Source: Quadrisphaera sp. DSM 44207 (GTDB lineage Bacteria; Actinomycetota; Actinomycetes; Actinomycetales; Quadrisphaeraceae). Taken from it: a stretch of DNA of 64,000 nt. Position numbers and translations under genes: made by a program. How positions within the stretch are numbered: the first letter of the stretch is position 1; each line of letters opens with the position of its first letter. Positions 11,963 to 45,101 of the stretch are shown piece after piece. The notes under the pieces were generated by a model. The model had not been told where the DNA came from. It saw only the letters and a program-made list of their open reading frames with translations, and did not search any database. Location: NCBI RefSeq assembly GCF_900101335.1, contig NZ_FNKA01000002.1, forward strand, positions 682,001 to 746,000, read 5' to 3'.

Positions 11963-12385
11963 GTGCCCAGCCCCAACGCACACGTCGACGCCGAGGTCGA
12001 ACTCAGGCTCGTCGTGCCCGAGGCCGGCAAGGTGCCGGTCGCGGTGGACCTGGGGTACGGCACCCACGACCCGTTCGCCGTCACGGCCGCCTTCCGCGGC
12101 GACGGCGGCACGATCGAGTGGGTCTTCGCGCGCGACCTGCTGCGCGAGGGCCTGCGCCGCCCCACCGGCGAGGGCGACGTGCAGGTGTGGCCCGGCGAGG
12201 CCGACGGGCGCGCGGTGCTGCTCGTGTCGCTGACCTCCCCCGAGGGGCACGCCGTCCTCGAGGCCGACGCCGACGACGTGCGCGGCTTCCTCGACCGCAC
12301 CCACGCCCTGGTGCCGCCCGGCGCCGAGAGCCGCTACGTGCACCTGGACGCCGAGCTGGCCGGCATCCTCGGCCGCGCCGCCTGA
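11963..12385 (+). CDS. SsgA-family (SALP) cell division/sporulation protein
   Basis: A 140-residue protein of the SsgA-like family found only in actinobacteria with complex morphology. Family hallmarks are the start with ELRLVVPEAGKVPVAVDLGYGTHDPFAV, then VEWVFARDLL-like IEWVFARDLLREGL, and the ending YVHLDAELAGIL. SsgA-like proteins position division septa and control cell-wall remodelling in sporulating species; in non-filamentous members such as SsgB-only genera the role is in division-site selection. GTG 11963 has AGGAGG 6 nt upstream. A strong hairpin terminator follows. Which SALP subgroup it belongs to cannot be read here. Confidence 0.92.
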   Translation: MPSPNAHVDAEVELRLVVPEAGKVPVAVDLGYGTHDPFAVTAAFRGDGGTIEWVFARDLLREGLRRPTGEGDVQVWPGEADGRAVLLVSLTSPEGHAVLEADADDVRGFLDRTHALVPPGAESRYVHLDAELAGILGRAA

Positions 12386-41378: not shown

Positions 41379-41468
41379 GGCCAGCAGCACGGTCGCGGCC
41401 CGGCGCGGCGCGCCGACGTGCGTGCGCCGGCGGGCTCCCGGGGCGGAGCGTGCGAGAGGATGTGCGGC

Positions 41469-42044
41469 GTGGAGCTGCTGGACGTCCCCGCCGACGCACC
41501 ACCGGTGTTCCTCGCCATGCTGGCGGACCTGCGCGCCGCGCCGCTGCGCACCGACGTCCTCGTGGAGCAGGTGCCCGCCCCCCGGCGCCTCGCGCCGTCC
41601 GCGGTGGCGCTGTCCGCGGACGTCGTCGCCGGCGGCGAGGACGTCGCCAGCGGCCGCTTCGTGCTGCTGCACGACCCGCTCGGCCAGGACGGCTGGGAGG
41701 GCACCGTGCGCGTGGTGACGCTCGCCCGCGCCGCGCTGGAGGCGGAGCTGGCCACCGACCCCCTCCTCGGCCGGGCCGGCTGGTCGTGGCTGGAGGAGGC
41801 CCTGGCCAGCCGCGGCGTGCGCGCTGGCGCCCTGTCCGGGACGGTCACGCGCGTGGTCTCGGAGAGCTTCGCGGGCCTGGCCGAGCGCCCCGCCAGCGTC
41901 GAGGTCGAGGTCCGCGGGTCCTGGACCCCGCCCCCGGACGACGTCGGCACCTCCCTGCAGGCGTGGGCGGACGTGATGTGCGCGGCCGGCGGCCTGCCGC
42001 CCCTGCCGTCCGGCGTGGTCGCCTTCCCCCCGCGGGGGCGCTGA
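41469..42044 (+). CDS. DUF3000-family protein
   Basis: A 191-residue protein of the actinobacterial DUF3000 family, which has no known function and is usually encoded between hemE and RNase D, as here. Typical blocks are [23 protein letters not shown], and VEVRGSWTP with [26 protein letters not shown] 41469 is chosen because GAGGAT lies 7 nt upstream (leaderless); ATG 41460 in the same frame would add three residues. Confidence 0.85.
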
Positions 42045-42091: not shown

Positions 42092-42117
42092 TCAAGGTCG
42101 GCGCGCACGAGCCGATA
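42092..42117 (+). promoter_or_regulatory. Sigma-28 (FliA/WhiG)-type promoter
   Basis: TCAA, 15 nt, then GCCGATA matches the flagellar/sporulation sigma-28 consensus TAAA-N15-GCCGATAA closely (-35 at 42092-42095, -10 at 42111-42117). It is 53 nt upstream of the start of the LuxR-type gene at 42170. No other match was noticed in the window, so this gene would belong to a motility or differentiation regulon encoded elsewhere. Confidence 0.65.
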
Positions 42118-42169
42118 CCTCCTGCGGACGGTGCCCAGGACGGGCGCCGCGAGGAAGCGGAGGCTCAGG

Positions 42170-42778
42170 ATGAGCACGGTCGTGGAGAGGGGTGCCGTGC
42201 GTGCGGCGCCGGCGCCGCGGGGACGGCGCAGCACCGCCCTGGTCGCGGTGCAGACCCTGGCGGCGCGCGAGATCGCCGTCCGGGTGCTGCGGGCGCTCGG
42301 CACGAGCGAGGTCCTCGCGGCCAGCACGGTGCTCGAGGCCCGCCGCGCGGCCGCCGCCCACACCGGGGACGCGTGCGTCGTCGAGGCGGGCCTGCAGGAC
42401 GGCGCGGGGATCTCCCTGGTGCGCGACCTGCGCGCGGCCGGCTGGTCGCCGGCCGTGGTGGTCTCGACCACCGAGGACCCGTGGATGGTGCGCGCGGCCC
42501 TGGCCGCCGGCGTGCGCTGCTTCGTCTCCACGCCGGCCTCCGGCACCGTCGCGCCCGTGCTGCCCTCGACGCCGGAGGGGCTGCAGAACCTCTCCGGCCG
42601 CGAGGTCGAGGTGCTCCAGCTCGTCGCCGACGGGCAGTCCAACCGCGAGGTCGGCGACGCCCTGGGCCTGTCCGCGCTGACGGTCAAGAGCCACCTGGCC
42701 CGCATCGCGCGCAAGCTGGGCACCGGCGACCGCGCGGAGATGGTGCTCGTCTGCCTGCGGGCCGGCGTCATCTCCTGA
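42170..42778 (+). CDS. LuxR-type response regulator with Glu in place of the phospho-Asp
   Basis: A 202-residue protein with a receiver-like domain (about 25-130) and a canonical LuxR HTH (LSGREVEVLQLVADGQSNREV to the end). At the strand that should end in the phosphorylated Asp it reads ACVVEAGLQDGAG, with Glu at that place, and the late Lys is replaced (RCFVSTPAS). Glu can mimic phospho-Asp, so the protein may be always active and set by its expression level. ATG 42170 has GGAGG about 9 nt upstream. The sigma-28-type promoter ahead suggests control by motility or development. It sits between DUF3000 and RNase D, where neighbours are usually housekeeping. Confidence 0.85.
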   Translation: MSTVVERGAVRAAPAPRGRRSTALVAVQTLAAREIAVRVLRALGTSEVLAASTVLEARRAAAAHTGDACVVEAGLQDGAGISLVRDLRAAGWSPAVVVSTTEDPWMVRAALAAGVRCFVSTPASGTVAPVLPSTPEGLQNLSGREVEVLQLVADGQSNREVGDALGLSALTVKSHLARIARKLGTGDRAEMVLVCLRAGVIS

Positions 42779-42822: not shown

Positions 42823-44064
42823 GTGAGCAGCGCACCGGTGGAGGAGCCCTCGCAGGCCCCGGAGGGCCCCGAGCCGGTGCTGCTCAGCGCGCCCCGCGAC
42901 GGCCTCCCGCCGCTGACGGACACCCCGGAGGCGCTCGCGCGGAACGCGGCCGCCCTGGCCGCGGGCACCGGACCGGTGGCGGTCGACGCCGAGCGGGCCT
43001 CGGGGTACCGCTACGGGCAGGACGCCTACCTGGTGCAGCTGCGCCGCGCCGGCGTCGGCACCCTGCTCGTCGACCCGGTCGCCCTGCCGGACCTGTCCGC
43101 GCTGCGCGAGGCCCTCGGGGACGCCGAGTGGGTGCTCCACGCGGCCTCCCAGGACCTGCCCTGCCTGGCCGCGGTGGGCCTGGCGCCCGGTGGGAAGCTG
43201 TTCGACACCGAGCTGGGTGCGCGCGTCGCCGGCTACGAGCGCGTGGGCCTGGCCGCCGTCGTCGAGCGCCTGCTCGGCATGACGCTGGCCAAGGAGCACT
43301 CCGCGGTCGACTGGTCGACCCGCCCCCTGCCCGAGCCGTGGCTGGTCTACGCCGCCCTCGACGTCGAGGTGCTGCTGGAGCTGCGGGACGCGCTCGCCGC
43401 CGACCTGGCGCGCCAGGGCAAGCTGGAGTGGGCCCGCCAGGAGTTCGCCGCCGTGCGCAACGCCCCGGCGCCCGCCCCGCGCACGGACCCGTGGCGCCGC
43501 GTCTCCGGCCTGCACGCGGTGCGCGGGCGGCGCGCCCTGGCCGCGGTGCGCGAGCTGTGGCTCGCCCGCGACGAGCTCGCCCGCCGGCGCGACGTCGCCC
43601 CCGGCCGGGTGCTGCCCGACCGCGCCGTCGTCGCCGCCGCCCAGGCCATGCCGACCACGCCGGGGGCCCTCGCCGCGCTGCCGGTCTTCTCCGGCCCCGC
43701 CAACCGCCGGCAGGCCGACCGCTGGCTGTCGGCGCTGGACCGCGCCCGGGCGCTGCCGGAGTCCCAGCTGCCGGCGCCCGCCCCGCCGGGTGACGGCCCG
43801 CCCCCGCCGCGGGCGTGGAAGGACAAGGACCCCGCCGCGGCCGAGCGCCTGGCGCGGGCGCGCGCCGCAGTGGCCGCCGTCGCCGAGGCGCACGCGGTGC
43901 CGGTGGAGAACCTCCTCTCCCCCGACCTGCTGCGTCGGCTGTGCTGGAGCCCGCCCTCGCCCGCCGGCCCGCGGGAGGTCTCCGACGCGCTCGCCGCGGC
44001 CGGTGCCCGGCCGTGGCAGCGGGAGCTGGTCGGCGACGCCCTGGCCGACGCGCTCTCCGGCTGA
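42823..44064 (+). CDS. rnd: Ribonuclease D
   Basis: A 413-residue 3'-5' exoribonuclease of the DEDD family that trims tRNA and other RNA ends. D55 and E57 (VAVDAERASGYRY), the Asp in HAASQDLPCL and the Asp in YAALDVEVLLEL form the DEDD set; an HRDC domain follows (about 225-300) and a second helical domain closes the protein. A Pro-rich linker (APAPPGDGPPPPRAW) separates them. GTG 42823 has TACGGT 7 nt upstream (leaderless). In related genomes a thiolase-fadB pair usually follows; here efeUOB does. Confidence 0.93.
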   Translation: MSSAPVEEPSQAPEGPEPVLLSAPRDGLPPLTDTPEALARNAAALAAGTGPVAVDAERASGYRYGQDAYLVQLRRAGVGTLLVDPVALPDLSALREALGDAEWVLHAASQDLPCLAAVGLAPGGKLFDTELGARVAGYERVGLAAVVERLLGMTLAKEHSAVDWSTRPLPEPWLVYAALDVEVLLELRDALAADLARQGKLEWARQEFAAVRNAPAPAPRTDPWRRVSGLHAVRGRRALAAVRELWLARDELARRRDVAPGRVLPDRAVVAAAQAMPTTPGALAALPVFSGPANRRQADRWLSALDRARALPESQLPAPAPPGDGPPPPRAWKDKDPAAAERLARARAAVAAVAEAHAVPVENLLSPDLLRRLCWSPPSPAGPREVSDALAAAGARPWQRELVGDALADALSG

Positions 44065-44129
44065 CGGCCACCGGCGCCCCGCCCGGTGGGCGCCGGTGGG
44101 CGCAGCCGCGCCCCGGTGTCTTCCACAGG

Positions 44130-44148
44130 TGAGGTGAGCCTCACCACA
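44130..44148 (+). promoter_or_regulatory. DtxR/IdeR-like iron box 1
   Basis: TGAGGTGAGCCTCACCACA agrees with 14 of 19 positions of the IdeR consensus TTAGGTTAGCCTAACCTAA by eye. It lies 87 nt upstream of efeU. Confidence 0.65.
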
Positions 44149-44169
44149 CCTGTTCCCCCGGCCGATCCG

Positions 44170-44188
44170 GCAGGTTAGCCTCGCCTCA
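44170..44188 (+). promoter_or_regulatory. DtxR/IdeR-like iron box 2
   Basis: GCAGGTTAGCCTCGCCTCA also agrees with 14 of 19 positions of the IdeR consensus, with the core TTAGCCT intact. Two boxes 40 bp apart in front of an iron importer strongly suggest repression by iron-loaded DtxR/IdeR. Confidence 0.7.
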
Positions 44189-44234
44189 CTCCGTCGGGCC
44201 GTCCGGGCGCCGGCGCTGCGCGAGGGGACACGGC

Positions 44235-45101
44235 GTGATCGCCAACCTGCTGATCGGCCTGCGCGAGGGCCTGGAGGCGACGATCGTCGTCAGCATCCTC
44301 ATCGCCTTCCTCGTCAAGACCGGACGGCGCGACCGGCTGCGCCCGCTGTGGGCCGGCGTGGCCGCCGCGGTGCTGCTGGCCCTCGGGGTCGGCGGCGGCC
44401 TCACCCTCGCCTCCAAGGTGCTCACCTTCGAGGCGCAGGAGCTCCTCGGCGGGATCCTGTCCGTCGTGGCGGTCGTCTTCGTCACGTGGATGGTCTTCTG
44501 GATGAAGGGCGCCGCGCGGCACCTGCGCTCCGACCTCGACGCGCGGATGCGCACGGGGGTGGAGCTGGGCGCCACCGCGGTCGCGGTCACCGCCTTCCTC
44601 GCCGTCGGGCGCGAGGGCATGGAGACCGCGTTCTTCCTCTACGCCGCCGTGCAGGCCACCGGCCAGACGTGGCAGCCGCTCGTGGGTGCCACCGCCGGCC
44701 TGGCCCTGGCCGTCGCGCTCGGCTGGCTGCTGTACCGGCAGGCCGTCCGCATCGACCTGCGCCGCTTCTTCACCTGGACCGGGGCCGCGCTCGTCGTCGT
44801 CGCCGGCGGCGTGCTGGCCTACGGCGTGCACGACCTGCAGGAGGCCGGCGTGCTGCCGGGGCTGCACTCCCTCGCCTTCGACGTCAGCGAGCAGGTGCCG
44901 CCCACCAGCTGGTACGGGGTGCTGCTGAAGGGGACCCTGAACTTCTCCCCCGCCACCACGTGGCTGGAGGCCGCCGCGTGGGTCGCCTACGTCGTCCCCG
45001 TCCTGGCCCTCTACCTGCGCCCGGCGCGGCCCGCGGCCGTGGTCCCCGCGGCGGGCGCGTCGTCCGACCCCGCGGCCGCGCCGTCCCGCGCCGCCGCCTG
45101 A
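44235..45101 (+). CDS. efeU: EfeU iron permease (FTR1 family)
   Basis: A 288-residue membrane permease with seven hydrophobic segments. The two REXXE iron-binding motifs are present: REGLE at residues 10-14 and REGME near 125-129. EfeU moves iron across the membrane after oxidation by EfeB, with EfeO as the outside binding partner. GTG 44235 has GAGGGG upstream. It is the first gene of efeUOB; two iron boxes lie upstream. The Ala/Pro-rich C-terminal tail is outside the domain. Confidence 0.95.
   Translation: MIANLLIGLREGLEATIVVSILIAFLVKTGRRDRLRPLWAGVAAAVLLALGVGGGLTLASKVLTFEAQELLGGILSVVAVVFVTWMVFWMKGAARHLRSDLDARMRTGVELGATAVAVTAFLAVGREGMETAFFLYAAVQATGQTWQPLVGATAGLALAVALGWLLYRQAVRIDLRRFFTWTGAALVVVAGGVLAYGVHDLQEAGVLPGLHSLAFDVSEQVPPTSWYGVLLKGTLNFSPATTWLEAAAWVAYVVPVLALYLRPARPAAVVPAAGASSDPAAAPSRAAA

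Follow-up and report, generated by a model that had tools for sequence, protein, structure and literature searches.

An orthologue of the sporulation regulator WhiI is predicted to be expressed from a WhiG/FliA-type promoter in Quadrisphaera

Introduction

The closest described counterpart of the regulator studied here is WhiI of Streptomyces coelicolor and S. venezuelae (SCO6029), whose gene we take to lie between genes for a DUF3000 protein and RNase D. SCO6029 is characterized as an orphan regulator under WhiG that lacks a phosphorylation site (PMC9739842). Its receiver pocket is described as degenerate, without the Lys and with an incomplete Asp pair, and WhiI is not believed to control any genes by itself; in Streptomyces it is the BldM-WhiI heterodimer that is reported to activate late genes (Al-Bassam 2014, PMC4125116). 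WhiG is reported to have flagellar promoter specificity, with the consensus TAAA / GCCGATAA (PMC8325347).

A 2013 survey found BldM and WhiI to be distributed alike, described WhiI as almost exclusive to complex actinomycetes, and reported it as absent from simple motile actinomycetes that contain WhiG (PMC4255298); one Kineococcus was among the organisms surveyed. PMC7472656 lists Kineococcus as motile cocci (Table 3), one described species being non-spore-forming, and Quadrisphaera as non-motile cocci; the genome of Q. granulorum encodes FlhA despite this record.

Here, we analyzed a 64-kb stretch of the 3.2-Mb genome of Quadrisphaera sp. DSM 44207 (the window), in which a receiver-HTH gene had been predicted to follow a sigma-28-type promoter. 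We consider it likely that this gene, whiI, is transcribed from a promoter of the WhiG/FliA family, that its product is a pseudo-receiver whose activity would be set by supply and by pairing with BldM, and that it is probably made together with motile cells. Results that do not fit are counted below against this best explanation.

Results

Sequence and gene context identify the regulator as WhiI

Pfam matches to both neighbors place the gene between DUF3000 and RNase D, as the original prediction had it (Table 1). Counted over loci with enough flanking DNA, DUF3000 lies upstream of whiI at 86 of 105 testable loci and RNase D downstream at 81 of 86, and the Streptomyces whiI loci that we examined have this context as well. 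No sensor kinase adjoins whiI among the nearest genes checked (DUF3000, RNase D, and HemE). Farther downstream, at 44120-44190 of the window, the repeats AGGTGAGGTGAGCCTCACC and AGGTTAGCCTCGCCTCAC stand ahead of a transporter gene at 44235; to us the repeats resemble iron boxes, and the gene presumably encodes an EfeU-like iron transporter.

Table 1. Features of the whiI locus in window coordinates
Feature	Position	Strand	Evidence
DUF3000 gene, ATG 41460 (other starts possible)	41460..42044	+	PF11452, 205.7 bits
Sigma-28/WhiG-type promoter (-35 TCAA, N15, -10 GCCGATA)	42092..42117	+	sequence; conservation
Ribosome-binding site GGAGG ahead of ATG	42159..42163	+	sequence
whiI orthologue, 202 aa (degenerate receiver and NarL/FixJ-type HTH)	42170..42778	+	alignment, Pfam, AlphaFold2
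GerE/LuxR-type HTH, residues 140-193	42587..42748	+	PF00196, 62.9 bits; invariant columns
RNase D-family exonuclease (exo1 and HRDC)	42823..44064	+	PF01612, PF00570

Across 29 genomes (the source genome and 28 relatives), we found 17 orthologues besides the window's, with 51-78% identity; members of this class score at least 98 bits, and other regulators score below 55 bits. The best 80 matches of a GTDB genome scan include Quadrisphaera granulorum (which has the same family code as the source genome), Kineococcus, Kineosporia, Motilibacter, and many Streptomyces, and among these matches the Streptomyces orthologues are 46-48% identical to the window protein. The HTH is the most conserved part of the protein, whereas the Response_reg match is borderline (29.7 bits at the locus and 30.8 in the genome search, with a cut-off of 30.2). 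These matches identify the gene as an orthologue of whiI, which in Streptomyces encodes a sporulation regulator that depends on sigma-WhiG. The two systems have in common the neighbors, a sigma-WhiG-type promoter, a NarL-type HTH, a degenerate pocket without Lys, and a genome that also encodes BldM and WhiG. They differ in the residue at the phospho-site (usually Asp in Streptomyces, Glu in the window protein), in the -35 box (TAAA in Streptomyces, TCAA here), and in the flagellar and chemotaxis genes that the source genome carries on the same promoter type.

The promoter ahead of whiI is conserved

The promoter TCAA-N15-GCCGATA is present where it had been predicted, ahead of the receiver-HTH gene. 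The plus strand there reads TCAAGGTCGGCGCGCACGAGCCGATA, and 52 bases separate its 3' end from the ATG at 42170. The site is the sole exact motif match in the window, and it matches the strict form of the motif. Its boxes, TCAA / GCCGATAC, are each one base apart from the WhiG/FliA/SigD consensus (PMC8325347).

Could this be a chance match ahead of an ordinary orphan regulator? Composition alone predicts about 0.7 exact matches across the genome, which would speak for such a reading. For promoter and pocket counts, we collected 144 whiI loci and retained 106 distinct proteins, excluding fragments or weak matches (L018-L030); this set is different from the 106 whiI genomes described below, the equal number being a coincidence. 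The loose form of the motif, which was composed after some loci had been seen, is found upstream of whiI for 91 of the 106 distinct proteins, compared to an expectation of 5.6 (first-order Markov copies) and 7/106 in coding-DNA controls. For the strict form, the count is 61/106, compared to 0.48 expected (Markov) and 0 in the coding controls. The distance from motif to gene varies across loci while both boxes are retained, and the -35 box follows lineage: the window's relatives have TCAA, Streptomyces has TAAA, and several Frankiales MAGs, among others, have TACA. The loose motif was not found at 15 of the 106 loci, which counts against the best explanation. Conservation across whiI loci at shifting distances indicates that the promoter is real and supports its assignment to the sigma-28/WhiG type.

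The exceptions are also informative. Two genomes of one genus, both 100% complete (G105 and G282; loci L208 and L209), encode whiI and BldM; no WhiG was found in either, and the promoter motif is absent. This loss of the motif without WhiG represents a single evolutionary event in the expected direction. Together with the retention of the motif at 91 loci, it contradicts the chance-match reading, which we now regard as scarcely credible. In the 393-genome sample described below, 6 of the 106 whiI-positive genomes lack WhiG at the line used; 4 of these 6 are fragmented assemblies (100-430 contigs) with the whiI motif present, and they are counted against the best explanation; the other 2 are G105 and G282.

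By eye, the regions upstream of L208 and L209 have another conserved block in common, which could be a housekeeping-type promoter. Separately, we observed two whiI copies in one genus (G329, with L226 and L227; also G273); in G329, the promoter motif stands ahead of only one of the two copies.

The source genome encodes two candidate sigma factors

A promoter of this type presupposes a sigma-28 gene, and the source genome (G000) encodes two proteins of this kind. The first is WhiG (TIGR02479, 277.7 bits with a cut-off of 189.6; C3:642317), whose gene adjoins Mg-chelatase-like (ComM-like), DprA, and recombinase genes, presumably the kind of place typical for whiG. The second is a FliA-like sigma factor (165.8 bits), encoded in the flagellar region about 30 kb from flhA. 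The two fall into separate, well-supported clades of a sigma tree. By sequence, either candidate could read whiI, because WhiG itself is reported to have flagellar promoter specificity (PMC8325347); this counts against the best explanation. With both factors encoded, the claim that the regulator is controlled by transcription gains support, and such control appears likely. The WhiG orthologue is also a point of likeness to the WhiG-RsiG switch, although in Rubrobacter type IV pili and c-di-GMP enzymes are among the reported targets (PMC8325347), compared to flagella, chemotaxis, and whiI as the predicted ones here.

The motif recurs ahead of flagellar and chemotaxis genes

The original prediction had proposed a genome-wide search for the same motif. 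Our search with TCAA-N14..16-SCCGATA revealed five exact sites in the 3.2-Mb genome, compared to 0.74 expected from composition and 0 matches for a reversed-pattern control. These five sites precede whiI, a flagellar rod-protein gene (PF00460; FlgB by eye), cheB, and two genes for methyl-accepting chemotaxis proteins (MCPs). The flagellar region is on contig C1, different from the window's contig. With one mismatch allowed, sites were also found ahead of the genes for flagellin, FlhA, FlgN, and the FliA-like sigma factor. There are 10 such sites in the 50-kb flagellar region (0.8 expected) and 2 in the 64-kb window (0.4 expected); for three of the 10, no ORF is close enough to follow, and for one the only ORF is doubtful, which counts against the best explanation.

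Strict sites are likewise enriched in the flagellar cluster of the source genome (8 versus 0.25 expected, with a following ORF for 4 of the 8) and in that of a genome of the same family, G002 (5 in a 40-kb flagellar region versus 0.15 expected). In G002, four of the five are about 1.1 kb apart, and one of these four stands ahead of a flagellin-like ORF (by eye, not Pfam). We found no excess of strict sites in the flagellar clusters of G013 (1 versus 0.3) and G016 (1 versus 0.55), and the idea that the motif is common to the flagellar clusters of all whiI genomes was rejected. These two genomes, from two other families, have whiI with the loose motif despite motif-poor flagellar clusters, which is counted against the best explanation.

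WhiG and BldM accompany whiI across the class

Does whiI merely track flagella? Within the 29 genomes, FlhA is encoded in 17 of the 18 with whiI and in 5 of the 11 without, whereas WhiG is encoded in 17 of the 18 and in 2 of the 11. The sharper split identifies WhiG as the better partner of whiI, and we rejected the idea that whiI merely tracks flagella.

We extended the comparison to 393 genomes drawn evenly from the class and at least 90% complete. In this sample, whiI is present in 106 genomes, WhiG in 103, and BldM in 107; whiI and WhiG occur together in 100, whiI and BldM in 104, and all three in 98, and 284 genomes have neither whiI nor WhiG. The searches scored the first 7-8 candidates per genome, and presence lists were compiled by hand. 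The WhiG line was set at 240 bits, guided by the sigma tree, and the gap is narrow (weakest counted, 243.6; strongest uncounted, 236.1); at the family cut-off of 189.6 bits, WhiG is present in 119 genomes, in 101 of the 106 with whiI, and in 18 without whiI. One genus (g47) contributes 43 of the 106 whiI genomes, and the remainder are spread over 26 other family codes.

The BldM orthologue of the source genome (G000 C1:760329-760928) is 70% identical to Streptomyces BldM. An SsgA-family gene is found in 15 of the 29 genomes, the source genome included, and all 15 are WhiG and BldM positive. SsgA-family proteins act in Streptomyces sporulation septation. By gene content, then, coccoid relatives possess a set of developmental genes. 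In the window, the SsgA-family domain lies at 12038-12328 on the plus strand (G000:C2:694038-694328; 114.9 bits). In one genus (g3: G002, G005, G008, and G010; L014-L016 and L149-L152), WhiI and BldM are both unusually divergent, with Gln at the WhiI phospho-site in the three that we read and BldM only 49-51% identical to Streptomyces BldM. Such joint divergence would be expected if the two partners had coevolved.

Is WhiI made with motile cells, or does it serve development only? In the latter case, WhiI, BldM, and the SsgA-family protein would run a septation or cell-packaging program, and the promoter would be common to flagellar genes merely as a result of WhiG and FliA recognizing a single consensus. 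The 15 SsgA-positive genomes, all with WhiG and BldM, are consistent with a purely developmental role, as are G013 and G016, in which whiI has the motif and the flagellar cluster does not, and G027, which has WhiG and whiI and no FlhA. However, all five exact sites in the source genome precede whiI or motility and chemotaxis genes, the flagellar region of G002 carries the motif too, and Kineococcus, which has whiI, is described as a motile coccus (PMC7472656 Table 3). We regard a purely developmental role as a real possibility that falls somewhat short of probable, and we retain production of WhiI alongside motile cells as part of the best explanation.

The phospho-site residue drifts after loss of the receiver pocket

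The original prediction held that the phospho-Asp is replaced by Glu and that the late Lys is missing, and the alignment bears this out: the window protein has E72 at the phospho-site, V27-Q28 in place of the Asp pair, and T121 in place of the Lys. It further proposed that Glu72 is a built-in phosphomimic, which would hold the receiver in its active state and make WhiI active once made. In receivers that lack the phospho-Asp, Glu is reported as the residue found there most often and as able to mimic phosphate in many regulators, perhaps acting via a conserved Thr and Lys (PMC12632262). For WhiI, constitutive activity via active-site substitutions has been suggested (PMC12548384).

Our counts point elsewhere. 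The canonical pocket (Asp-Asp, Asp, and Lys) is intact in 18 of the 106 distinct orthologues, all 18 with Asp at the phospho-site. The 88 distinct WhiI with a degenerate pocket have Asp (47), Glu (33), Ala (5), or Gln (3) there. An acidic residue in 80 of these 88 would suit a phosphomimic. Glu is found in 3 of 24 distinct Streptomyces-type rows, with Asp in the other 21, and Kineococcus WhiI has Asp. Homologues that restore Asp, which the prediction itself had named as evidence against it, thus exist in all three groups. On a quick tree with several long branches (88 of the 106 WhiI rows and two BldM rows, rooted on BldM), the pocket changed from canonical to degenerate once, while the phospho-site residue changed at least 14 times (11 when D and E alone are counted), even between Streptomyces species. 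This interchange argues that the residue drifts once the pocket is lost, with acidic residues prevailing. A phosphomimic would be expected to hold its Glu and to keep the Thr and Lys; the window protein has neither the pocket Lys nor the Asp pair, and D, E, A, and Q interchange.

The Glu pseudo-receivers CmrT and AtvR have the same Asp-to-Glu change, but CmrT keeps the Thr and Lys (PMC12548384), whereas the window protein lacks the Lys and both Asp residues. Taken together, the pocket counts and the tree make a phosphomimic improbable. Tian et al. in 2007 reportedly obtained wild-type spores with the D69E variant of S. coelicolor WhiI, which we count against a phosphomimic as well; such spores mean that Glu is tolerated and do not imply that it is inert. 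WhiI may nevertheless be constitutively active on other grounds. By analogy with Streptomyces, WhiI is unlikely to act alone, because Streptomyces WhiI is reported as active only with BldM (PMC4125116).

The canonical set consists of L056, L059, L060, L061, L065, L067, L068, L070, L078, L080, L108, L210, L211, L216, L219, L223, L224, and L225, all 18 of which have an alpha5-like linker. DUF3000 is missing upstream in 17 of the 18, and the loose promoter motif is present in 14. One MAG (L070/G032; best BldM, 107.6 bits) hinted that a canonical pocket might be tied to the absence of BldM. This link was rejected, since the seven class-sample genomes in which we read a canonical WhiI (G044, G049, G081, G109, G204, G259, and G371) have BldM at 175-236 bits.

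Helix alpha5 seems to have been lost with the pocket

In canonical WhiI, 44-45 near-fixed, helix-like residues follow the Lys. Degenerate WhiI have 17-54 variable residues after the Lys position, with 16% proline compared to 7% in the canonical proteins. Modeled with AlphaFold2 (mean pLDDT, 86), the window protein contains beta1-beta5 and no alpha5, and has only a low-confidence linker and a five-residue helix ahead of the HTH. Its closest solved folds are NarL-type regulators such as spr1814, StyR, LiaR, and FixJ (Foldseek TM 0.4-0.5, full length). Alpha5 seems to have been lost at the same step as the canonical pocket. Receivers usually dimerize via alpha4-beta5-alpha5, and thus the modeled loss of alpha5 could offer a structural reason why WhiI would not homodimerize.

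Discussion

Under the explanation that we favor, RNA polymerase with a WhiG/FliA-family sigma factor would transcribe whiI from TCAA-N15-GCCGATA, with a predicted start site. The product would be a pseudo-receiver in which alpha5 is seemingly replaced by a Pro-rich linker and for which ordinary phosphorylation is not expected, the Asp pair and Lys being gone; for this reason, its activity would be set by the amount made and by pairing with BldM. By analogy with the published Streptomyces mechanism, the BldM-WhiI pair would read promoters that are closed to BldM alone. Both partners of that heterodimer (PMC4125116) are encoded here. Glu72 would be a tolerated residue and no switch. Finally, the promoter type common to whiI, flagellar, and chemotaxis genes suggests that WhiI is probably made alongside motile cells in this coccoid family.

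The regulator, its sigma-WhiG promoter, the atypical receiver, and the partnership with BldM are known from Streptomyces. What is new is that a coccoid clade possesses WhiI and has its gene behind the type of promoter that precedes flagellar and chemotaxis genes. By gene content, our data contradict the absence of WhiI from simple motile actinomycetes with WhiG that was reported in the 2013 survey (PMC4255298). In the non-subscription literature searched, WhiI appeared together with Kineococcus or Geodermatophil- only in that survey, and with flagella only in the survey and one Actinoplanes paper; WhiG, motility, and Kineosporia were nowhere joined. The portions of the literature covered made no mention of promoter sharing between whiI and flagellar genes, of the single-step loss of pocket and alpha5, or of a canonical sister group.

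A bolder version of our proposal is tentative, and we think it rather unlikely as a whole: in this coccoid family, WhiI would genuinely belong to the flagellar and chemotaxis regulon, WhiG-WhiI-BldM would link the production of motile cells to the separation or packaging of cells in an arrangement older than its use in Streptomyces sporulation, and the single-step loss of pocket and alpha5 would have made WhiI an obligate partner. Because Kineococcus and the Quadrisphaera family have whiI with its promoter, and the source genome has the same promoter type ahead of flagellar genes, unicellular relatives offer a way to test how the Streptomyces sporulation cascade arose, and the canonical sister orthologues would provide a natural before-and-after series for the passage from a phosphorylated regulator to a pseudo-receiver.
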